Source: Fragilaria crotonensis (lineage: Eukaryota > Bacillariophyta > Fragilariophyceae > Fragilariales > Fragilariaceae). Taken from it: a DNA stretch of 43,038 nt. Where the stretch lies: NCBI GenBank assembly GCA_022925895.1, contig JAKSYS010000540.1:1-43038 (forward strand). Reading direction: 5' to 3'. A program made the position numbers and the translations under genes. Under the pieces are notes generated by a model. The model did no database searches, was not told where the DNA came from, and saw nothing but the letters and a program-made list of their open reading frames with translations. Of the stretch, positions 6,994-19,600 are shown one piece after another (the first letter of the stretch is position 1; each line of letters opens with the position of its first letter).

Positions 6994-7020
6994 TTTTTGT
7001 CCTACCGGGTAGGACAAAAA
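6994..7020. repeat. Perfect 13 bp palindrome at left end of element
   Basis: TTTTTGTCCTACC and GGTAGGACAAAAA flank a single G. This makes the left terminus a hairpin that the right terminus lacks in the same form, so the two element ends are asymmetric. Confidence 0.9.
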
Positions 7021-7442
7021 AAAATAATTTATCCGAATCGCCGAACCCATTTTGTCCTTTGGCGGATTTAGCAATAGGACAAAAAGTAACCTTAAAATCA
7101 CGGGTTAATGAAATTTAACACGGCGAGTGCCGTGTTAATGTCGATAACAACCCCGTAATCTTGTTGGCTTACTCGCTGTATGTCACGGATCGGGCTGTAT
7201 GACTTACTGTACGTTGGCATTGTTGTTGCCTACAGCTCTGCGTACTCAGATTTAACGTCAGAGCATGAGATCGAACGTTACGTCAATTGCATAATCCACA
7301 TGGTCTCGGCGGCAAGTTTTAGCGATAACAAGACCCAAAAGCAAAACACGACTTGTTTTTTACGAACACACCCGGAGATGATCAACAACTAACCCGGAAA
7401 TTGTCAAGATTTGGCGTGATTTGGCGTTGTTTGGCGTTGACC

Positions 7443-7830
7443 ATGACAAAAGTGCCTATTGTGCAGTCACTTGATGCCGGACAGCAAGAAGGTGATTGCA
7501 AGACCCAAAAGGTGGACAAGACAGAGCCTTTTGATGTGATTGAAAGGGTTCTTGTCGGTGTTTTTGGGGACAGGGGACATGATCATTGTGAAGATGATGT
7601 TTAACACGGCAATTTAACACGTGAAAATCTAAAAATTGACAAAAGTGCCGATTGTGCAGCCATTAGATGCCAGACCACAAAAAAGTGATCACAATACCCT
7701 CAAGATGGGCATGACAGAGCTTTTTGTTGTGATAGAAAGTAGTGTTGTCGGTAAATTCAGAGATAGCAGTCATGATCATTGTGAAGATGAGATTTAACAC
7801 GGGATTTCACCACGTAAAAATCCGAAGATT
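7443..7830. repeat. Diverged tandem duplication, ~193 bp unit
   Basis: Units 7443-7636 and 7637-7830 share GACAAAAGTGCC.ATTGTGCAG, GACAGAGC.TTTT, TTCTTGTCGGT-like, and CATGATCATTGTGAAGATGA followed by TTTAACACGG. They have many substitutions, so the duplication is old. It lies inside the inverted-repeat element. Confidence 0.8.
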
Positions 7831-8207
7831 GATTTTTGTACGGTGAATTTTTGGATAATTTGTCCTTTCCAGAGCGATTCATTTAGGACAAAAAGTTTTG
7901 CGACGACCACAAAATTGGTCTTTCTTTGCATCAATGTATCTCCACCATTTTTAGGACAAAATAGGAAAGCAGCACTGATTTGGAAAGGTCATGAAGTCAG
8001 GAACAGGATGTACGACTACGATTTTAGTGGTATTGGAAATCTGGAGATAGCGAGGATCGCCAAAAATTGTCCTTTTTTTTTTGTCCTACACTTTTCAATG
8101 TTTGGGGCTAAGCACTTTACCATTACCATGTATCTTGTATCATACCAGGTACCAGGTACCAGTACAAGTAGCGTACACAGTACGAGTAGATGCAATTATC
8201 CGAATAA

Positions 8208-8936
8208 CTAAAAGCACAAATCATATTTTTCAACGGACGATTACACAAATCTCGTACGTTCCATAACGGTAGCGCGCCAAAAATGTGCGACCCATTTGTT
8301 ATTTATCTGGTTATAGGCCCCACAAAATCCTAGCACAAATCCACAAATTTGTTTGACCACCATTTGCCCTCGAATAAATTTTGTGCACACACAAATCACA
8401 TTTCACAAAATCTACATCCATTTTCTACAGCTGAAACATACCAGCGATGACTTTAAATCCGAATTCTCGCCTTCAACGTCCCGTTCAATTCTCCTGCTTA
8501 CATTGCACTTAAGTCTTCGCCACGCACTCTCTGAGGGCAGTTGTAGACATGGTGAGGTATACATAACGTTGTCGGATGCGACGTTGGTACTCCGAAAAGC
8601 TGGTTGTAAAAGGTTTTCCGATACCTGGAGTGACATCTCCGTTGAGAATTCAACTGCCGTTTGCGCTTCTGGACATGTGTGTACATTAAGTACAACAACA
8701 TGAAGTCCGAAGAGACCATCCTGGCAATTTAGACTTTGAAGGAAATGGATTGGACGGAATGCTTCCAACACCACTACACAAATCACATTAAATGTGATTT
8801 GTGCTTTTAAGAACGACGTCAAATATACGACACAAATCTACGTTTTGTGTTAACAAAACACAAAAAAGACGTTAAGAACACATGGTCTTCACACATGGAA
8901 AATGTGTCGCATAAAAAATGTGATTTGTGCTTTTAG
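8208..8936. mobile_element. MITE-like element with CTAAAAGCACAAATCA inverted ends
   Basis: The left end, 8208-8230, and the reverse complement of 8913-8936 match over about 23 bases with one or two mismatches (CTAAAAGCACAAATCA then an A/T tract). Both ends contain TA, which is compatible with a TA target duplication around AAAGCACAAATC. A third inverted copy of the TIR core lies at about 8790-8816. The interior has ORF fragments with no recognisable domain. It ends 12 bp before the retrotransposon. Confidence 0.75.
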
Positions 8937-8948
8937 GATCGCTCCACT

Positions 8949-9184
8949 CGACGCGGACTTCGTGACCTCCCGTAGCGTCGAAACTAGTCTGCCACTGCTC
9001 TCGTTCGGTTGTTGACAAATTGTTTGTTTGCCCTTTGCCATCCCCTCTCAATCTTGGCTAGTCCTACTGGACTGTGGGTATGGTAGACTTGTCTTTGGCG
9101 TAACCGTGACTTTCGTCGCGGCGTTTTTTAGTGTTGCTCCATTCCAGCTCCCCGGTGCGTTGGATTTTCGGTCTTTCGTCCCCA
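8949..9184. repeat. Split direct repeat B2 (element right end)
   Basis: This 236 bp stretch is nearly identical to 9553-9787, starting CGACGCGGACTTCGTGACC and ending GGTCTTTCGTCCCCA. The only difference noticed is TTTTCGG here versus TTTTGG in the other copy. A 13 bp G-rich spacer (9185-9197) separates it from A2. Confidence 0.92.
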
Positions 9185-9197
9185 GGGGTGGGTGGGC

Positions 9198-9552
9198 GGT
9201 ATTTTAAGATTACTGTAGTAGTAGTAGCAGCGATAACAAGGTCTCAATCTTACCAGATGGTGAGATGTGAGAGGCCTTTATATTTTCGGTACAGGACCGA
9301 GTTCACGATTTTGGTAAGTTATTCTTCCCAGCTTTGGTGGCCTTTGGGTGGAGGTGCTTCGCCCTCTGCATCGTATTAGGGTATTAGCTCCACCATCTGG
9401 GCATTTGCGGTCCGTTGCTGCACTGTACCCGTTTGCCGTACTGGGTTGTTTATTACTTGCGCTCTGTCGTGATGAAGGGATTCCGTGGGTTGCACCCGTA
9501 GTGTTGGTCCTGTACCGTTGTCATCGTACTGGCGCTGCTTCAGACCTAGTAA
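9198..9552. repeat. Split direct repeat A2
   Basis: This 355 bp stretch is nearly identical to 16036-16366, starting GGTATTTTAAGATTACTGTA and ending CTTCAGACCTAGTAA. It contains 24 bases at 9268-9291 that are absent from the other copy. It is directly joined to B1 at 9552/9553. Confidence 0.92.
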
Positions 9553-9787
9553 CGACGCGGACTTCGTGACCTCCCGTAGCGTCGAAACTAGTCTGCCACT
9601 GCTCTCGTTCGGTTGTTGACAAATTGTTTGTTTGCCCTTTGCCATCCCCTCTCAATCTTGGCTAGTCCTACTGGACTGTGGGTATGGTAGACTTGTCTTT
9701 GGCGTAACCGTGACTTTCGTCGCGGCGTTTTTTAGTGTTGCTCCATTCCAGCTCCCCGGTGCGTTGGATTTTGGTCTTTCGTCCCCA
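9553..9787. repeat. Split direct repeat B1
   Basis: This 235 bp near-identical copy of 8949-9184 lies between the recombinase ORF (stop at 9856) and A2, as expected for the B1A2B2 block. Confidence 0.92.
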
Positions 9788-9855
9788 TCCTAATCACCAT
9801 TGAATTTCCTTCCTCTCATTCGTTTCCCCTCCCTTATTCCTTTGCTTCCCTGTTC

Positions 9856-11106
9856 CTAGTGGTGCAGGTGCATTTCCTGCATTCTCGGAAACGTGAGGGA
9901 GCGTTCCGCATTGAAAAGGGTTTGGCGGCTTCGGGGGTCGGTGGGTGGGGTTCGCTGAGAGTGTGTCAAATCTGTGAAGGAGTTGAACTGGATCATGTCG
10001 GTAGACATGTTGTTGGTCCATTCGAGGACTTGTGGTCTGATGTAGACCAAGAAGGCATCCGAGGACCACCTTCCCAAGATCATTATCTTGTGGACAGGGT
10101 GATTCATGAGGAAAAGCCCCATGGCTGCTCCGGATCGGAGGGATTTTGTTCCGATTTCGTTAGCAGCATAGCCGAAGGTTGGGGTGCTGCCGGCTGCTGT
10201 GCAGGTCGACCTCATGTGTGACCGGAGGTTGGTACTGGTCACTGAACCCGTCGTGCTGATGAGGCAGATAGTATTGATGGGGGTTGTCGGCACGGCGGAC
10301 GGGACTTTCCGTAGGATGCGAGAGACAATTGATGCCAGTCGGCGGACGGGGCACAACAATTCATCGGAAGTTCGTTGGTGTGTCCTCCGATCATTTTTCG
10401 TCCCGTTCTTCTGGTTTTCGAATGTTAAGGTGACTCGTTCGGCAGAGGCGAGGTTGCCCGTGGTGTGTGCGATTATGGAATTGTTCGTCGCTCTGAAAAC
10501 AACGCCTCGTAGCTTAATGATGTGGGTTCGGCCAGGAGTCCGCGTGGTGGTGCACTCACAGGATCTCATTGCAAAGAAGTAGGCCACGATTGCTAGTTCC
10601 GTAACGATAGAAAACAAAGTGTCTGTCGTGGTTTCCAGGAGTGTACCTGAGAGTGCTCCCATAGCCCGGAGGAGCTTTGGTGTGATTGCTCGTTGTTGGT
10701 TCTTCGGCGGGTCCGTGTTGTCGTAGGCTTTCAGTAGGGAACGGACAAAGGGTCGCAGGTGCGAGCTTCCCTTGACGTGCACGGGGCTGTCCCGTTGATG
10801 ACTCCGAAACGCCGTAGCCAGGTGGCTTGCGGCTTGTCGCACAGTGCTCGATACCACAGGTTTTTGACGGTTGCCTGTAACGTCCCCGGATGGGGACCAA
10901 TTCGTGTTTCGGTAACACTGCAGAAAGGACTTGGTGTAAAGTTCCTGCTCGTGGTGGGATAACAAAAGGAGGTAGGGGTCGTTGACGAATCCAGTTGATC
11001 GTGCAAATCCCGTCCAACGACGCCATACCCGATCGGCTCCTTCATTGCGGGACTCTTGGCAGCTGTCCAAGATGATGCTGCGGTTTGCAGCACCAGCATG
11101 ACCCAA
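9856..11106 (-). CDS. Retrotransposon tyrosine recombinase (YR) ORF
   Basis: The open frame spans about 416 codons with no ATG in its first ~145 codons (11106 is TTG), so it is probably reached by frameshifting from the RT ORF, which it overlaps by 376 nt in the -1 frame. Numbering from the frame start, catalytic landmarks are Arg181 in FAMRSCEC, a beta-strand Lys near 233, K321-S-L-R324, Trp347 in GRWSSDAF and nucleophile Tyr355 in VYIRPQ. The usual HxxR histidine is replaced by Lys321. The enzyme would recombine the A/B repeats of the circular intermediate with the target. About 68 bp separate its stop from repeat B1. Confidence 0.88.
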   Translation of the reverse strand: MGHAGAANRSIILDSCQESRNEGADRVWRRWTGFARSTGFVNDPYLLLLSHHEQELYTKSFLQCYRNTNWSPSGDVTGNRQKPVVSSTVRQAASHLATAFRSHQRDSPVHVKGSSHLRPFVRSLLKAYDNTDPPKNQQRAITPKLLRAMGALSGTLLETTTDTLFSIVTELAIVAYFFAMRSCECTTTRTPGRTHIIKLRGVVFRATNNSIIAHTTGNLASAERVTLTFENQKNGTKNDRRTHQRTSDELLCPVRRLASIVSRILRKVPSAVPTTPINTICLISTTGSVTSTNLRSHMRSTCTAAGSTPTFGYAANEIGTKSLRSGAAMGLFLMNHPVHKIMILGRWSSDAFLVYIRPQVLEWTNNMSTDMIQFNSFTDLTHSQRTPPTDPRSRQTLFNAERSLTFPRMQEMHLHH

Positions 11107-13958
11107 GATAGTACTTCGCTGGGCAACGGTGATATTTTGAAATTCTCCGGTACCTGTTCGGTCAATATAGTCAAGAAACGGTTGGTTAGAACATCATCCG
11201 GTGGGTCGTCGTGCGCAATTGGGTGTCGCTTTCCTCTCTCGCTCTCCCCTGCAAACGACAGGAGGTCAGCGACAACGTTGAACTCTCCCTTGATGTGCTG
11301 TGAGGCGATACAGCAGTCATTATTCATCATAAGGGATGCCAGGTGTCGAGCGACCATCAGGTGAGCTCGGTGGGCACCGGACTCCAGGTCGAGTGTGGAC
11401 GTCTTGAACAGCCATCCGATAGCGGAGGTACTATCTCCGATTGCTAGAATGCAGGGTTGGTCATTCTGGGGTGCGTCTATGCACTCGAGCCAGATGTTCA
11501 CAACCATTGCCGTGAACTCGAGTAGGTTATTCACACTCGCATTTCCCCTCACGGCATGGTCTGCGGGTATCTTTAGTCGCCAGGCACGGCCAGATAGGCT
11601 GTAACCTCCCATTCCGTGAGGACATGCGTCCGACCAGCATATACGTGTCGGTTCTCGCGTGACGATGAGGTTAATCGAGATACCTCGGTTTGCCCTTGTC
11701 AATATGTCAAACCACAGTTTGAAGTCATCCCGGACTTCGTCCCCAATTGTCAGCATACTGTTCTTGTGCTTCCTCGGGGATAGTACGTCACGTATCCGAC
11801 TCATGAAGTGCCGTGATATTGGTAGTACGAATGAGGAGTGGTTCAGCCTGCCCACAAGTTGATCCAGGTCGTGGTAACGGCACCTTGGTTGACTGATTAG
11901 TCGTCCTAGGTCCTCGCTCCAAGCAACAAACTTGTCGTCCGGTAGCGAGATGAGCATGCGTCGGGTGTCCAAGCGCCAGCCGAGTACAATCTGGATTTCG
12001 GCTGGGCTCCCTTCGGCTAGCAGCTTCGGCATGGATAGCAGGGGTCTCCGCGTGATCGGTTCGCTTTCTCCCGCGTGCGGCCGACTCGTGACGTGCATGG
12101 CTAGTGGTACAACGTGTGGTTGCATCCGACAATTATCAGGTGTGTCCACGAACACGTTGATGAGGTCGTCTATAAATCCGTCAACCCTGCCCACCCTGGA
12201 CTCTGCCAGGGGTATCTCCACTGCCATTTGTTTGCCCGGTTGCAGTTGTATCGATCCGTCGATCCTGGTCGGAGGCGGTGCTACCGGTTGTGCTGGGCTG
12301 CGTGTTTGGACCGGGTTCCACTCGATGCACTGGCTTATCTCGTTTGCAAGATCCGTCACAATTTCGGAGAACATGCACCATGTGGGAGGGTTGGGGGAAC
12401 CCCCAAATGTGAGGCGGAGTGACAAGTAGGCAAGGCCTTCATGAATCGCGATGGTCTGTGAGGCGGCGGATGCACTGTGCGCTATACGTCGGTATGCGTC
12501 ACTGTAGTCGTACTTGCAAATGAAGATGATCTTGGAGGGGAATTTGAGTCTCACTGCCACAATATAGTGGAGGATCCGTGGCAGGCACCAACCGTAGATC
12601 ATTTCGGTGTATGCCGACATGTCTATCCTGCTGTTTATTGACCTGGATGGTCCAGAGCGGGCCGAGGAAAAACTGAGGTCTTGAGTCAATCTGTACTTGT
12701 CGGTTCTGTTGCCCTTGGCATCCAAAGTCCACTGGTGGACTAGACCAAGCGGCTGCATCGCAGCATTTGGGATTCGTTCCACGGTAGCTATAGTTATCGG
12801 TATGACAAAACCGTGTGTGACGTCTTTGTTGATTAGTTTCGTCACTTGGTCCGCGTGCTCCTCGGCTGACTTGTGGTTTCCCCGTGCCAGGAGTTTTTGT
12901 AATTCGTCCGCTTTTGTGACAGGGTCAAGCTCCCTTTCGAAAACATAGCTCATCCCGAATTTCAGGACCTGGGACAATCCCGTAAAATGTGGGTGACGTC
13001 CAATTAGTGGTTTTAACTGTTCCACTGTCCTAAACTCTGACCCGTATCCAAGTGTTGTGTCCGCATACTGCCTGAGCAGTTTATCCACATCAAAATTGGA
13101 ATTCTCCAGTAGTTTCGCATTTACCGTCGCTGCATCAATGGTGTTCTCGAATACTACTGGAGACTTCTTTGGCGTTATCGGCACCTTCGCTGCTACCTTT
13201 TTCAGCTCTGTCAGGAACCACTCCTCCGTGTGGAAAGCATCGTCGGGGCCCTTGATCGGCTTGTGGAAGTATGTTCTCGTGTCGTTGCTCAGGTGTTGCC
13301 GCACTCCCCCACCTGTCTCGTTGACTGGTCGTATGATCCCGTCTGGTCCTTGTTTCCTAGTTGACTCACCTATTATTGACCGGTCCGACTCGTCTGCTCT
13401 CACTAACCTCTCCTTATTTCTCCTATCTCTGCTCCGTTCTACGGCTGCGACCATTGAAGGGGGTGGTGGATGGTGGTGGTGGTGGAATAACGCACCAGGT
13501 GAACGTCGTTCAGGCGAATGCGTTGACTGGTGCGTCGGGTGCGTTCGTCTTACTGGCCCGATCTTTGACTCTCGTTCGGGCGACGCGCGGTCCCTTACTA
13601 GCTGAGGACGTTCCCGTTCGGGCCCAAGGCTGGGTCGTACTAGCTGAAGCCGAGACTGTGTGGATTGAACCCTAGACCGTTGTTCGGGTGAGCTCCTTAC
13701 TTGCCCGGTCTTCGACTCTCTTTCAGGTGATGCACGGCTGGCGGTATCCCGTACTAGCAGAGTGTGTGGCGGTTTGGCCGCCTGGACGCTGGGCCGCAAT
13801 AACTGAAGCGGCGGTGGTGTTGGCGTGGGCGCCGTTATGGCTGGTCGCCTGCGTTCTAGTGCTCCCCGAGGTACTATGGGGACATCGGCCTTGTTGTCGG
13901 TCCGTGACTGGTTGCCAGGCGCAATGGTGCGGGGGCTCGAGCCTAGCAACCGGTGGCA
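10731..13958 (-). CDS. Retrotransposon reverse transcriptase - RNase H ORF
   Basis: The frame is open from just after the gag TGA (13959-13961) and in the same frame, through about 1,075 codons. The first ATG is only at 13454, leaving a long Pro/Arg/Ser-rich stretch with SPERESK repeats before it; stop readthrough is therefore likely. Residues are numbered from 13949. RT motifs are KYDYSDAYRR (Asp481), LTFGGSPNPPTW and the catalytic box FIDD (592-595), where YxDD has Phe for Tyr. RNase H residues are visible as Asp774 (CWSDACPHG), Glu811 (LLEFTA), Asp839 (AIGDSTSA) and Asp895 (NVVADLLS). The C-terminal ~125 codons overlap the recombinase ORF in another frame. It would copy the element RNA into DNA and degrade the template. 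Confidence 0.9.
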   Translation of the reverse strand, partial: CHRLLGSSPRTIAPGNQSRTDNKADVPIVPRGALERRRPAITAPTPTPPPLQLLRPSVQAAKPPHTLLVRDTASRASPERESKTGQVRSSPEQRSRVQSTQSRLQLVRPSLGPERERPQLVRDRASPERESKIGPVRRTHPTHQSTHSPERRSPGALFHHHHHPPPPSMVAAVERSRDRRNKERLVRADESDRSIIGESTRKQGPDGIIRPVNETGGGVRQHLSNDTRTYFHKPIKGPDDAFHTEEWFLTELKKVAAKVPITPKKSPVVFENTIDAATVNAKLLENSNFDVDKLLRQYADTTLGYGSEFRTVEQLKPLIGRHPHFTGLSQVLKFGMSYVFERELDPVTKADELQKLLARGNHKSAEEHADQVTKLINKDVTHGFVIPITIATVERIPNAAMQPLGLVHQWTLDAKGNRTDKYRLTQDLSFSSARSGPSRSINSRIDMSAYTEMIYGWCLPRILHYIVAVRLKFPSKIIFICKYDYSDAYRRIAHSASAASQTIAIHEGLAYLSLRLTFGGSPNPPTWCMFSEIVTDLANEISQCIEWNPVQTRSPAQPVAPPPTRIDGSIQLQPGKQMAVEIPLAESRVGRVDGFIDDLINVFVDTPDNCRMQPHVVPLAMHVTSRPHAGESEPITRRPLLSMPKLLAEGSPAEIQIVLGWRLDTRRMLISLPDDKFVAWSEDLGRLISQPRCRYHDLDQLVGRLNHSSFVLPISRHFMSRIRDVLSPRKHKNSMLTIGDEVRDDFKLWFDILTRANRGISINLIVTREPTRICWSDACPHGMGGYSLSGRAWRLKIPADHAVRGNASVNNLLEFTAMVVNIWLECIDAPQNDQPCILAIGDSTSAIGWLFKTSTLDLESGAHRAHLMVARHLASLMMNNDCCIASQHIKGEFNVVADLLSFAGESERGKRHPIAHDDPPDDVLTNRFLTILTEQVPENFKISPLPSEVLSWVMLVLQTAASSWTAAKSPAMKEPIGYGVVGRDLHDQLDSSTTPTSFCYPTTSRNFTPSPFCSVTETRIGPHPGTLQATVKNLWYRALCDKPQATWLRRFGVINGTAPCTSREARTCDPLSVPY

Positions 13959-16031
13959 TCATGTCGTTTTTGGTGCTAAGATTTCCCGCATGATCCGGTC
14001 AACCTGGAGGAATTCAGGTTGCGTCATGCCCTGAGCCAGTACGTGTGCAAGTTGGCACCCGTATGTACACTTTTTTGTCATCTGGAATCTAGCGCACATG
14101 GGAGCTGACTTTGTTTGCCGATTCTTCTTTGGTAAGCGGGTATCCTGGAGCTTAGGCCAGTTTTGGGACCCCGGTGAGCGGTCCTTGAATAGAGCGAGGA
14201 AGTCAGTATCCTTGGGAACTAGCCATTCCAAGTGGGGGTGCGTGTTTACATGTTCCTCGGAGTGGTGGCGGTAGGGTGTGGTTTTCTTCGGAGCTGTTGT
14301 TTCCGTTCCTCCGCTACTCTTGGTTTTGGCCTTTTTCGTGGCGGGACTTCCATCCGCAGCGTCGGCACGGCCGCCGCGGGCTATTAGGCTTGCCGGGAGA
14401 GTCACGGCTATGGATGCCCCCGCCTCAAGTTTTCCGATAAGGTCAACGGCATGGTCGATCAAGAAAGTCGGCGATCCTTCCATAACGGTGTCACCCTCAG
14501 CCAAGTGGGATAGGCGTCGGAAGAGCGTTTGTAGTGTTCTGTCAACGGTGTACAAGAATTTAGTTCCAAATGCCTTCTCTGCTACAAACCTGTCGTGTAT
14601 TTCGGTTGCGTAGCGTCTCCATCTGGGAGGGTCCAGAATATAGTGTAGGCCTCTTGTGGCAATTGAATTCTTGCACGTTAGCAGCTCCAACATATCTAGG
14701 GCTGTCTGCAATTGGATTCGTAAATCATGCGAGTTCGTTGGATGGAAGAATCCCTGTTTAGCGTAGTATGCCACTGTTGAATCTTCGACATCCATACCGA
14801 AGTACTCTCGTAGTGTAGCTGTTGTGCTGTCGAACGTGCGTGTTCCCATGTCCACCGTACGTGGGTGGAACATGAATACCGTGAATCCCCCCGGGTTTGC
14901 CCTGTTGGTCTCGAGCGATAAAAATCCGTTGGCTAGAAGCCGATGGCAACAGCCCTCGGCAAACGTTCCTTCCCAGTCGAGGGCTCTGTTCTTCAATAGG
15001 CCTATGGCCTTTTGGGGCGTGGCGGACTTGGTCAACGTTTTCATGAATTCGGTCATTTCGGGCGGGATAGTCAAATCCGTCGTGCAGAGGTTGACAAACA
15101 GCGCCTTCTGCACAGGGTCAATTGTCTTGAGCAGGGAGGTTTTGTCTTCCGTCCGCGACCGCTCAGCTGTACGGTCTTCATGCATCCTGTTGAGTTCATT
15201 CACGATACTCTGGGAAGACAGGACGAAGGCTTCGGTGTTCTCGTCATGTACAGCAGCTCTCGCCGCGCCTCCAACCCCGAGTTTTCCTTTGATCTCCCTG
15301 ATAATGTTGTTCAGTACCGGGTCGTCTTCTACATCAACGAGTTCGATCGGGGTGAGTCCTTCGTTCTCTGACGCCCACAACATTGCGAGCAAGCTTTCGG
15401 CTCCTGACTTAAGTTCTGTCTTGAGCGCTCGAAGATCCTCGTCGTCTTCGTCTTCTTCGGCGTGCTCGCGAAACCAGGCTATAACGGTTGCGGCTAGCGT
15501 TTTAGCATTGACGGACGTCGCTCCGTCAGCCATCATGAAAATCTCTGGGTTGATCATTAGGTGGTTGGGGTGCTGGCGCAGTATTCCGTTTCCCTGGGCC
15601 GGGAGTGCCTTGAATTCGTCCTCGGTAGTAGACGCTAGCATATCCGCGAGGGTGGGGCAATTGGTTGACCTGACCCTGGGACCGGTAGTCACCTTGATCT
15701 GTTCGACTGCTGCCGCTCTTGGTAGGACTTTGAAATAAGAACAGTCACTGAGGTTTCCCAGGACGAAGATCATGGAGGTTCCTTTGCTGGTGGTGCACGT
15801 GAACCCGTGGTGGAGGATATGAAATTTCCCGGGCAGACCGGGAACCATGACCATGTTACCATATGCACTCCCAGCAATAGTGTCAGTGAATGCGAGGGCA
15901 TCATCAAGGTGGGTCTTAGTCACTGCTGCAAGGGGACCGAGTTCGCTCTCATACATCTTCTGGAAGGCCCCGTTATCTTCCCGGTTGCGCGCATAGAAGG
16001 CGAGCCAAGTCAAAGAAGGAGTAGGCACCAT
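13959..16031 (-). CDS. Gag-like ORF with C-terminal CCCH zinc knuckle
   Basis: 690 aa from the ATG at 16031 (MVPTPSLTW), which is only 5 bp inside the A1 repeat boundary. The long alpha-helical body has no enzymatic motif. A lysine-rich segment (ATKKAKTKSS) precedes a C-terminal finger, CARFQMTKKCTYGCQLAH, spaced C-x8-C-x3-C-x3-H, probably for nucleic-acid binding. Position and composition fit the structural ORF1 of DIRS-order elements. It ends in TGA at 13959-13961, with the RT ORF following in the same frame. The open frame extends 18 codons into repeat A1 but lacks an ATG there. Confidence 0.82.
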   Translation of the reverse strand: MVPTPSLTWLAFYARNREDNGAFQKMYESELGPLAAVTKTHLDDALAFTDTIAGSAYGNMVMVPGLPGKFHILHHGFTCTTSKGTSMIFVLGNLSDCSYFKVLPRAAAVEQIKVTTGPRVRSTNCPTLADMLASTTEDEFKALPAQGNGILRQHPNHLMINPEIFMMADGATSVNAKTLAATVIAWFREHAEEDEDDEDLRALKTELKSGAESLLAMLWASENEGLTPIELVDVEDDPVLNNIIREIKGKLGVGGAARAAVHDENTEAFVLSSQSIVNELNRMHEDRTAERSRTEDKTSLLKTIDPVQKALFVNLCTTDLTIPPEMTEFMKTLTKSATPQKAIGLLKNRALDWEGTFAEGCCHRLLANGFLSLETNRANPGGFTVFMFHPRTVDMGTRTFDSTTATLREYFGMDVEDSTVAYYAKQGFFHPTNSHDLRIQLQTALDMLELLTCKNSIATRGLHYILDPPRWRRYATEIHDRFVAEKAFGTKFLYTVDRTLQTLFRRLSHLAEGDTVMEGSPTFLIDHAVDLIGKLEAGASIAVTLPASLIARGGRADAADGSPATKKAKTKSSGGTETTAPKKTTPYRHHSEEHVNTHPHLEWLVPKDTDFLALFKDRSPGSQNWPKLQDTRLPKKNRQTKSAPMCARFQMTKKCTYGCQLAHVLAQGMTQPEFLQVDRIMREILAPKTT

Positions 16032-16035
16032 GGAA

Positions 16036-16366
16036 GGTATTTTAAGATTACTGTAGTAGTAGTAGCAGCGATAACAAGGTCTCAATCTTACCAGATGGTG
16101 AGATGCAGGACCGAGTTCACGATTTTGGTAAGTTATTCTTCCCAGCTTTGGTGGCCTTTGGGTGGAGGTGCTTCGCCCTCTGCATCGTATTAGGGTATTA
16201 GCTCCACCATCTGGGCATTTGCGGTCCGTTGCTGCACTGTACCCGTTTGCCGTACTGGGTTGTTTATTACTTGCGCTCTGTCGTGATGAAGGGATTCCGT
16301 GGGTTGCACCCGTAGTGTTGGTCCTGTACCGTTGTCATCGTACTGGCGCTGCTTCAGACCTAGTAA
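16036..16366. repeat. Split direct repeat A1 (element left end)
   Basis: This 331 bp copy of 9198-9552 lacks the 24 bases found there. In element orientation it forms the 5' end and should contain the promoter. The gag start codon lies immediately after it. Confidence 0.92.
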
Positions 16367-16609
16367 CACTGCGCATGCACATACTCGTATTCGTATTCAT
16401 AGGACTGCCGGTACTGTACTAAGTACCCGGGACAACGTAGTTGTTTCGACTCACGACTCTTCCCACCTCCATCGTTCCTCACACACACCTCGTCTCAGCC
16501 TCCACAATGGACAATTCACATCATCTTGTGACTGTGACGATTCAAAGCTACTCACATCTGCTATCTGTGACAATTCATCACCCCAAGAGAAAAAGGGCTT
16601 CGTTAGGAG
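16367..16609. promoter_or_regulatory. Upstream region of the TANGO6-like gene
   Basis: A 243 bp gap between the retrotransposon end and the ATG at 16610. It holds a small GTAC cluster (about 16412-16428) and a pyrimidine-rich stretch. The retrotransposon inserted this close may have replaced or displaced native promoter sequence. Confidence 0.4.
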
Positions 16610-19600
16610 ATGACTCAACTTGATCCACTGGGTGCTGACTTGCTGGAGCAATGTGCTTATCAAGTGCTTTCGTCGATTGAGAGGACAGTCAGTGCAATCA
16701 AAGGAGTGGAGGCATTCTCTCCGAACAATCGAAAGCGTCCACCGCTTGAGCAAGTGAATCTTGTTACTATCTTAGACAGCCAGGGAATCTTCCAGAGGGT
16801 CAGAGAAACGATATCCTTTGTCGAGAACAAGCTAGGGACCACAATCACGGATTGGAACAAAAGAGATGTTTGTGCCTCGGTGAAGGAATGTGGCAACCAA
16901 CGAACAACATTGGTCCAGCTAGTTCTTCTGCCGCTATTGGATGCCTTATTCACTTGTTATCGCTTAATCGATAGCATTCCACAACCATTACCTCCGCAAT
17001 CGAAGAACGAAACAAAGCCTCCGCCTCCGAGAGGCATGTTATCCCTCCAGAACTACACCGACGTTGGCGCCATCTTGGAATTCACAGTTTGCACTTCGTT
17101 GCTGCCATGTCTCGAGGTCAACGTGCTGGGGTCCGTCCGAGATCGCGCTCAGTATCTACTTCCGAAATCCTTGGCAGGACGACTTCCTCGTGTAAGTTTA
17201 CTTTGGGGGACGTCAGTTATGGGGAGCAGGATAATGAATTCACAGTCCAGGAGATCAAACGCGTGGTGCGGTCGATCGGCAGCGTCATTATTCTCGATCG
17301 ATTCCGTCCCATGCTATTGTCTCGACATCTTGCTGATCTTTACGCTGGAATTTTTCAATGCGAAGCTTTGGAAGGTTCCGCTCTTCTCGACTCCAACTTG
17401 AGCTTCGTGTACTCCTTCCTCTTACCAGACTCACAGTACGATCGCTCGGGTGCTGTTGACTCGATCAACCAAGCACGAGCCCTTCAAACTCTTTTGTTAC
17501 GAGGGACAACGGGACCATTGTGGCTCCGAAAACGGGTCTCAACCCTACTGACTGAACTTGCCTCTCGTGACCTTTTTGCCATCGTTCAGGTGTTTGTGAT
17601 CTCTGCGGCGTCGTCCCAAGCTGACACTACAGCAGCTGCTCTGCGATTATCCAAGACTCTAGTGGTTGTCAATGACGACAATGACTATTCAAAGTTGTGT
17701 ATCCAGCTAGTGCAACTCCTCGACGTCGATGTCGAAACCATGAGCTCGACTGAGTTCGCCAGTGCCGTTACTGTTTGGGCTTGTCTGGATCAGCTCCCCA
17801 GACAGCAGGTGCTTCAATGCTTCTTGCCAATCTTGACTGAAGGAATTTTTCCTAAGGAAGGATCGTGCGACCTTCACAGCATGGTTCGACGCCTTCTGGT
17901 ACTTTTCGCTGTCGTTCCCGTGTCTCACAGCACAACTGCCGTTTGTGATTTGATCCTCTCCCCGATACCAAGTAATAAAGCCACAACTTTGCTCAGCCAA
18001 ATAGTTCGCCTAGCATCCTTAACGACAATTGAAGATGCAGAAGTCAAACACGACGCAGCCATGGCCCTCCGGATGTTTTGCTGTCTCATGGAACGCACAA
18101 CGTTCAGTTTCTGTGGCGAAGAGGTTGACGGCCTTGGCTTGCTTTCAGTATGCCTATTGTACGCAGTTGCTCCTAACAAATGGGATATTGATGGTAGCCA
18201 ATACCGGCTCGCAGTTGGAAACGATACCATGACAAGGAGCAATGACCTGACCCTGGTGACGTCGCAGGATTGCCCTATTGATGAGGCCTCCGTTCTTCGC
18301 GACGTTGAAACGAGGGCATCGGTCGTTGTCAAGGAAGCCGTTAAAGTGACGGAACTCAAGACCGATTCGTTGCTTGCGCGGTGTATGTTTCAGCATCTAC
18401 TGTTGACAATCTTTAGTCTATCGCAGAAACTTGGCTCAACGAATTGTTCCCCTGACCTTCGGCTTTCCGTCATGATCCTACTGCCCATACTATGCGAATC
18501 CCTTTCCCCGGAAGCACTTTTGTTGGGAGCGTCTTCCGGTGCCTCGGAAATTCTCGCAACTTTCAAGCTCATTCTTGATTGCGCGGCATCGTCTTTAGAC
18601 GACTATTTTCACCAATCCCAAGGGAACCGCGTTTCGGGAATTGTAGTCGGTTTCAACAAGGCATCCCGACTGTTCCATTCCATGGCACCAGAGTGCGACC
18701 TCAACAGAAACCAGGTGAACGGAGGCAAAGATTCCGAGCTGGAAGATATGCTCATGTCAACTGCATCCATCGCTCTCAGTCTCTTGACGGCGATGTTAGA
18801 ACTGGGTTCGGACTATCGCAATGCTGAAGAAGTTGCACTACTTGAAGACACTATTCCTTCCCTGCGTGTCTTGTCGACAGTTGCTTCAAATTCAAGAGCG
18901 CACGGTTCAGAAGCAGCGAAATTGCAAGCTGAGGTGGCTGAAATGGCGAGCCATGCTGCTGCTCTCATCGTCTCAAGGAAGGCTAGAGTTGAGATTAACA
19001 ACCTGGACAACCGAAGGGAAAATATGTCATTAGCCATGATTATCGCCGAGGCTGAGAACGAGATACAGTCAGACCACCCCGCCGTCAGAGCGCAGGGGGT
19101 TGTGAGATTGCGGCATCTGGCTCGTGGTTGCCTTGCCGACAGGGGCGAACAACTTCCAACGACGCCAAAGATGGTGGATATTTCTGAGCCCTTGTCCAGT
19201 CTGACCAACGTCGATGTAATTCACGAGATTCTTCGGGTATCCTTGTTGACACTAGCTGACCCTGAATCATACGTGTACTTGGCCGGCATTCAGACTATTG
19301 TTGCCATTGCTGATGTAAATCCCCGAGTGATAATCCCGTTGATTGGGATCGGAATCAGCGTTGGGGAAGTCCAACTAAATGCGGGATCAGTCAAAACTGT
19401 TCTTCTAACGCAAAATGAGCGCATCAAACTGGCAGAGGCTCTTCTCTTCGTGGTACGACGGCGAGGACCAGGTATCGATCAATATATGTCACAGATCCTC
19501 ATGACGATGATGCGTGGTCATCGTCAAGTCCAGGAAAGGATGCCCCCAAATGATGCAAAGATCATTCAAGAACAGACTCATGATTTTTTCACTTCCGATA

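Follow-up and report, generated by a model that had tools for sequence, protein, structure and literature searches.

A 43,038-nucleotide stretch of contig JAKSYS010000540.1 from the diatom Fragilaria crotonensis (assembly GCA_022925895.1), referred to here as the window, carries on its minus strand, at positions 8949-16367, a retrotransposon with the layout A1-gag-pol-YR-B1-A2-B2, in which A and B are direct repeats and YR is a predicted tyrosine recombinase. In this element and its relatives B and A meet within a conserved two-stem structure rather than in bare sequence, and the foot of the inner stem marks the boundary. We consider it probable (roughly 0.72) that the element is Ngaro-like, that it passes through a circle in which B is joined to A, and that the two-stem junction is the site at which this circle recombines. 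The junction motif suggests how such elements may be cut and inserted and, as a covarying structure at the joint of 12 families from two deep clades in one genome, it offers in vitro work a well-defined substrate. We found no description of a structured circle junction for split-repeat elements in the accessible text of the open-access literature (PMC4157794, PMC8547959, PMC6681497, PMC3212892, PMC3266345, PMC8138268 and PMC5633606); an earlier description may exist.

The long exact direct repeats of the element stand in canonical order and total 482 bases. A1 and A2 share one exact block of 262 nt (16106-16367 = 9292-9553) and a second block at 97% identity (16031-16105 and 9193-9267); upon re-alignment they differ by 24 bases present in A2 only (9268-9291) and by two substitutions at the outer edge, beside the gag ATG, and are otherwise identical. 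B1 and B2 share an exact block of 220 nt (9553-9772 = 8949-9168) and agree in 235 of 236 re-aligned columns. A chance origin of the repeats was set aside because of this extent and order and because the A1...B1A2B2 layout recurs in relatives. A first-pass annotation of the window had described split direct repeats and the order A1, gag, RT-RNaseH, YR, B1A2B2, both of which hold on alignment. Its near-identical repeats are found for B1/B2, but A1 is without 24 bases of A2. The gag, pol and YR frames are all open, as it had said, with the corrections that the first gag ATG lies at the very end of A1 and that pol and YR overlap by 460 nt. At the A2/B2 border (about 9183-9199), and also in the C52 family, there is a C-rich, ACCRCCCRCCCACCC-like string; A1 has the gag start context instead.

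A conserved two-stem hairpin at the B1/A2 joint

Relatives were sought in the assembly (62.1 Mb, 881 contigs). At the DNA level the only near-identical copy was the window itself (best 40 of 68 candidates), the 48 other rows being pieces with 65-77% identity. Protein searches gave at least 102 match rows for YR (best 100 of 314 candidates) and at least 56 for pol (best 50 of 395 candidates), several of which may come from one element. Such elements are therefore common in this genome, which weakens the earlier remark that they are rarely reported from algae of this type. They form two clades: that of the window (clade 1), with near-intact YRs 50-63% identical and decayed pieces lower, and clade 2, with YRs about 26-35% identical to that of the window. 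Within the set the pol regions of C38 and C52 are 99% alike. CryptonS elements have been reported from a diatom (in the available text of PMC3212892), and the distant clade 2 YRs were considered as Cryptons; this was ruled out where pol adjoins YR, at 10 loci (C24, C597, C409, C144, C98, C474, C187, C287, C820 and C131); six of these belong to the 18 loci of clade 2 that were read for box II. Family F12 (C155 and C9), with no pol among the matches listed, was taken as a probable retrotransposon on account of its split repeats.

Among 27 3′ ends examined, 25 had direct repeats (L103 and L111 did not) and 22 were used, L094, L104 and L108 being left out because the best repeat was another one, ended early or ran past the joint, respectively. 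These 22 ends represent 12 families from both clades, and in all 12 the B1/A2 joint forms a two-stem hairpin. The 3′ arm of the inner stem closes B, and the foot of this stem coincides with the 3′ end of the element. The outer stem spans the joint: the first bases of A pair with a segment of B that immediately precedes the inner stem. In the window the outer arms are CAGAC(T)/(G)GTCTG and the inner arms CGACGC/GCGTCG. Elsewhere the sequences differ: inner stems include CGACG...CGTCG, CGAAG...CTTCG, CGAAGGC...GCCTTCG and CCTATC...GATAGG, and outer arms CAGAC/GTCTG, TAGAC/GTCTA, GCGAATA/TATTCGC, CGGACA/TGTCCG and GCCGTAC/GTACGGC, with imperfect pairing in F9 and C155. In all 22 elements the 3′ end of a stem coincides with the boundary once six have been trimmed by 1-2 nt to that of their family; untrimmed, the stem ends at offset 0 in 15 of 22. 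A Watson-Crick stem of at least 5 pairs lies at the boundary in 11 of the 12 families, the twelfth needing a G-T pair, and shuffled sequences reach this in 1-3% per family. L094 (C427:101200-102600) has the usual junction and a second A-end repeat directly before a gag-like start, and is perhaps a tandem or nested copy.

Both stems covary. With C155 as the F12 row, canonical pairs occupy 60 of 60 inner and 70 of 72 outer positions, and in 20000 shuffles of the right half the observed pairing was reached once for the inner stem and never for the outer one; sliding the arms of the outer stem leaves 17-27 of 72 pairs canonical. An exact permutation of the outer stem over seven classes gave 2/5040 with the worse F12 row (C155) and 6/5040 with the better one, and 24 choices of representatives gave 0.0002-0.0004. 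When folded as single-stranded DNA, with C9 as the F12 row here and in the RNA folds, the 12 representatives adopt the same two-stem topology (z from -0.39 to -5.65), with the outer stem interrupted in F9. Three points count against the structural case: the covariation counts include shared descent among related families; the stem offsets, which differ by one base between the clades, were chosen by eye from these very data; and in several families the fold is hardly more stable than those of shuffled sequences (z -0.39 in F4, -0.88 in F5 and -1.33 in F3).

The hairpin is the likely recombination site because the integration boundary sits at the foot of its stem. In the cycle that we propose, RNA from a promoter in A1 would run through B1A2B2 and yield gag, gag-pol through the UGA, and recombinase from the -1 overlapping frame. 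Reverse transcription would restore the ends lost from the RNA by means of the internal B1A2 copy, giving a circle joined B/A, and the recombinase would cut this joint and join it to the target without target duplication. The joint, whether a hairpin or a site with inverted arms, has its boundary at the inner-stem foot and is taken as the probable recombination site. Passage from an RNA copy to an integrating circle has been proposed, and is not fully proven even for DIRS-1, according to the accessible part of PMC5633606. No target duplication was found at the ends of the C52 copy, and the ends of the window element share at most one G. In 16 of 17 rows counted, the target base that follows B2 is A or T; three of the rows with T are ambiguous, since repeat A itself starts with T.

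The main rival, to which we give slightly less than an even chance, is an ordinary duplex site in which each arm binds a single recombinase protomer, the arms seem to covary since both follow the specificity of the protein, and the hairpin never forms. The changes in the arms do follow element families, and YR sites typically have two inverted arms of 11-13 bp, 6-8 bp apart (as described in the text at hand of PMC3212892). A comparable palindrome occurs in DIRS1-like elements at the meeting point of the inverted terminal repeats. In the circles of these elements, a 3-bp junction connects two inverted repeats (PMC3266345, in its available portion). In the Fragilaria elements, however, the distance between the inner arms, the loop, varies from 3 to 20 nt, as opposed to the 6-8 bp spacer of duplex sites, and the boundary lies outside the inner arm rather than between the arms. 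Furthermore, the T at the boundary is opposite a T in 10 of the 12 families (the other two have T opposite G and a G-C pair), where a symmetric duplex would have an A.

Alternatively, the hairpin may act in RNA and mark the place of template switching or priming during reverse transcription, its coincidence with the DNA boundary being a consequence. We regard this as unlikely. The junction does fold stably as RNA, in all 12 cases more so than B2 with its flank (mean -16.6 versus -10.5 kcal/mol), and the B1A2 copy would be in the transcript under the published model; a role in RNA does not, however, require the stem foot to be the integration boundary in 12 families, and the outer stem exists only at B1/A2 and in the circle.

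Within the preferred reading, in which the junction is the recombination site, a more specific version is that integration proceeds through a folded, possibly single-stranded complementary DNA junction that is recognised by shape and cut at the inner-stem foot, one clade doing so with a Lys/Arg-x-x-Arg motif like that of topoisomerases IB. At integron attC sites a tyrosine recombinase acts at G^TT beside imperfect stems, the structure being kept while sequence varies and the loop is of variable length. The analogy has limits, in that attC belongs to a bacterial cassette system without reverse transcription, and in that the boundary in the window element lies at the inner-stem foot. The loop of variable length, the position of the boundary away from the centre and the T-T mismatch kept in 10 of 12 families favour recognition of a folded strand; the computation is not decisive, and we hold this version to be rather doubtful as it stands.

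Recombinase box II, pol and the class of the element

The window YR has, in comparison with the R-H-R-Y pattern of Ngaro recombinases, the R, R, W and Y positions and Lys for His: box II reads TKSLR, with Lys (10144-10146) at the His position of HxxR, Arg (10135-10137), GRW and Tyr (10042-10044). This replacement is common to clade 1, in which Lys (window, C98 and C1) or Arg (22 loci) stands for His in 25 of 25 readable loci, three unreadable fragments (C537, C578 and C455) being left out of the count. In clade 2, box II is GTHSLRSGAA or similar, and His is kept in 18 of 18 loci read. All three clade 2 YRs scanned match the Pfam family PF00589 (Phage_integrase) at E 4e-4 to 7e-4, below the Pfam cut-off, and ten clade 2 YRs align with the window YR at 28-33%. 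On the basis of these matches and of the alignment across clades, the identification of the window frame as a tyrosine recombinase appears firmer than that of reverse transcriptase (RT) and RNase H.

In type IB topoisomerases, Lys occurs where box II has its His. A bacterial topoisomerase IB heads the 55 Foldseek matches of the YR model (E 0.89). Two bacterial YR subgroups have a less conserved box II His, or Tyr instead (PMC8138268, in the text available). Because such subgroups vary the His and topoisomerases IB use Lys, clade 1 recombinases may still be active. Loss of the box II His across a clade of YR retrotransposons was likewise not found described in the accessible literature listed above, with the same proviso, and its absence across the loci read in clade 1 provides a natural variant for studying recombinase chemistry.

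The pol frame contains RT motifs (KYDYSDAYRRI from 12515, TFGGSPNPPTW and GFIDDL) and RNase H motifs (DACPHGMGGY from 11630, NLLEF, GDSTSAIGW and NVVADLLS), and both sets are kept across two clades that are about 35% identical. Among the 50 listed Foldseek matches of pol (of 231), 48 are retroviral RTs, the best at E 0.22, which is not significant; no match for pol or YR fell below E 0.001 and these were used as hints only. The tentative assignment of pol as an RT-RNase H draws on the motifs kept in both clades, gene order and these non-significant fold matches. The gag frame has a Cys-rich motif at 14043-14096, which we take to be CCCH-like.

Several observations weigh against the reading as a whole. 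No fitting Pfam family was found for the three window open reading frames (ORFs) or for 9 pol rows of relatives, and none was matched by clade 1 YRs (that of the window and two scanned beside the clade 2 YRs). Sequence profiles of the PDB gave nothing relevant for pol or YR, and the window RT gave no profile-level alignment with the Ty3-like RT of the same genome (four near-identical long terminal repeat (LTR) element sequences). The predicted structures of YR and pol are poor (pLDDT 41 and 39) and come from shallow alignments. In addition, C98, the closest relative, has no recognisable B1A2B2, and no relatives outside this genome were found in viral_contigs or genome_contigs, collections of viral and prokaryotic sequence that carry little weight here.

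The structure of the element supports a Ngaro-like assignment, because it has split direct repeats, internal repeats downstream of YR and no methyltransferase that could be found. The lack of a methyltransferase had been noted before, and none was found: Pfam gave no match of that kind in the three ORFs, and PF05869 (Dam) gave none in the assembly, although among 14 control genomes only E. coli matches this family and a diverged DIRS-type enzyme could escape it. A split-repeat layout without methyltransferase is that of Ngaro/Viper, PAT belonging to a group that bears one (PMC4157794, in the part available). Of the earlier label "Ngaro/PAT-type", the first half is therefore kept and the second is less apt. 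PAT, TOC and Kangaroo elements also have split direct repeats, and Pat1 a gag zinc finger; they differ in the methyltransferase and, in some, internal repeats before YR, neither of which was found in the window element (same source). The 460-nt overlap of pol and YR departs from the "usually not overlapping" ORFs of Ngaro, which is not a strict criterion.

Among the closest described counterparts are the Ngaro elements of the stramenopile Cafeteria burkhardae (available text of PMC8547959), with the same A1-[ORFs]-B1A2B2 layout, gag, RT-RNase H and YR in about 6-7 kb; we compared them by description, and the word methyltransferase is absent from the main text of that paper. The window element differs in its box II Lys/Arg-x-x-Arg and in an RT that Pfam does not see. 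DIRS1-like elements (PMC3266345, as far as its text was available) are alike in the pol/YR overlap, present in half of the annotated elements, in a circle junction that is the integration site and in the lack of target duplication; they differ in having inverted terminal repeats and internal complementary regions rather than split direct repeats. Inverted repeats in 7000-18500 amount to three pairs of 20-24 nt, none of them at the two ends of the element. Nor does the element resemble an LTR retrotransposon, having split repeats instead of LTRs and no integrase match in the three ORFs.

Translation of pol and YR, and the deletion in A1

In all 13 elements that were read, gag stops at TGA. Seven of them, from five families (window, C98, C423, C776, C117, C114 and C603), have pol directly after this stop in the same frame, through linkers of 146-265 open codons that have 2-10 stops in other frames (10 and 3 in the two other frames of the window linker). 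In the remaining six (C38, C74, C414, C461, C333 and C542), the gag and pol frames differ or are interrupted. The linkers of C423 and C117 differ by indels of 12 and 3, multiples of three, and a third gap, of 42, ends the compared stretch; those of the window and C776 have no ATG for more than 150 codons. The in-frame open linkers, indels in threes and lack of ATG suggest that the gag UGA is passed by readthrough or another recoding event. The UGA codon itself is weak evidence, because TGA also ends many other frames (pol in 8 of 15 rows and YR in 9 of 11); the in-frame linker is the stronger argument. A gag-UGA-pol arrangement in Ngaro was not found described in the accessible portions of the same papers, though it may have been reported earlier.

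YR lies in the -1 frame relative to pol in 10 of 10 elements. Its first ATG is at codon 123 or later, within the conserved protein, in seven of these (the window YR has no ATG before codon 178); of the other three frames, two are broken and the third contains an ATG within the overlap upstream. Classical -1 slippery heptamers were searched for in the pol/YR overlap and were not conserved among elements.

The 24 bases missing from A1 contain, in A2, AAAATATAAAGGCCTCTCA. The 13-mer AGGCCTCTCACAT occurs 9 times in the genome, compared with once for a reversed control, and 7 of these occurrences are in A repeats of this group. C52 and C38 (the latter with an interrupted gag region) keep it in A1 as well as in A2, and it is absent from the window A1. 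We infer that the AGGCCTCTCACAT segment is a putative promoter, and its loss from A1 alone probably arose in the window copy, after or during its last insertion. The two further copies, at C295:94612 and C561:25840, lie outside assigned elements and may belong to another family or to a host promoter.

The earlier suggestion that this copy may be active loses ground with AGGCCTCTCACAT lost from A1, Lys in place of the catalytic His and a single near-identical copy in the genome. The opposite reading, that the element is a dead relic in which the A1 deletion removed the promoter and Lys-for-His may weaken the recombinase, is one that we hold as a minority view, tentative but serious. The 24 bases are missing from A1 only, C52 and C38 keep the motif in both repeats, and the lack of another near-identical copy fits as well; on the other hand, the three frames are intact and the repeats otherwise nearly identical, and Lys/Arg is not a private disabling mutation because it is common to all 25 readable clade 1 loci, including C38 and C52. 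A search of the assembly for an empty site, which the first-pass annotation had proposed as a check, gave no match spanning both joined flanks.

Coordinates and genomic setting

Table 1. Features of the retrotransposon and the neighbouring repeat element (positions in the window)
Feature	Position	Strand	Remarks
A1, 5′ terminal repeat and 5′ leader	16031..16367	-	without the 24-base segment of A2 (gap between 16106 and 16105)
gag-like ORF	13959..16031	-	ATG 16031, TGA 13961-13959; homologues in relatives
Linker, 168 codons, gag frame	13455..13958	-	open after a single TGA; no ATG
pol core, 907 aa	10731..13454	-	from ATG 13454; RT and RNase H motifs
YR open frame	9856..11193	-	-1 relative to pol, 460 nt overlap
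B1 repeat	9553..9787	-	last base is the predicted circle-junction boundary
Two-stem hairpin across the B1/A2 joint	9541..9595	-	boundary 9553/9552
A2 repeat	9193..9553	-	base 9553 common to B1; 24-base segment 9268-9291 contains AAAATATAAAGGCCTCTCA
B2 repeat	8949..9184	-	contains the 3′ end of the element, which lies at the inner-stem foot
Adjacent terminal inverted repeat (TIR)-type element, outside the retrotransposon	8208..8946	.	left end eroded

On the 8949 side the flank is the end of the TIR element, the retrotransposon beginning 2 bp outside its right end. The TIR element is 98% like a copy at C116:45421-46172 and 95-96% like two pieces at C877 (L070 and L071); the copies in C116 and C877 have 33-bp inverted ends (GGAGCGATCC...). 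Near it, at 7444-7829, is a tandem pair of 193-nt repeats that are 77% alike.

Elsewhere in the assembly, silicon transporters gave 19 match rows (best E 4e-193), among them fused multi-domain transporters with three domains in one frame of 1456 aa (C97:29749-33762) and two in 1008 aa (C771:21664-24330). A plastid-type rbcL is present, with 7yk5, 5n9z, 5mz2 and 5oya, presumably diatom Rubiscos, as the closest PDB sequences. The transporters and rbcL both point to a diatom host. The 108-kb contig C880 has many RVT_1 matches and may represent a mitochondrial genome with numerous group II introns.

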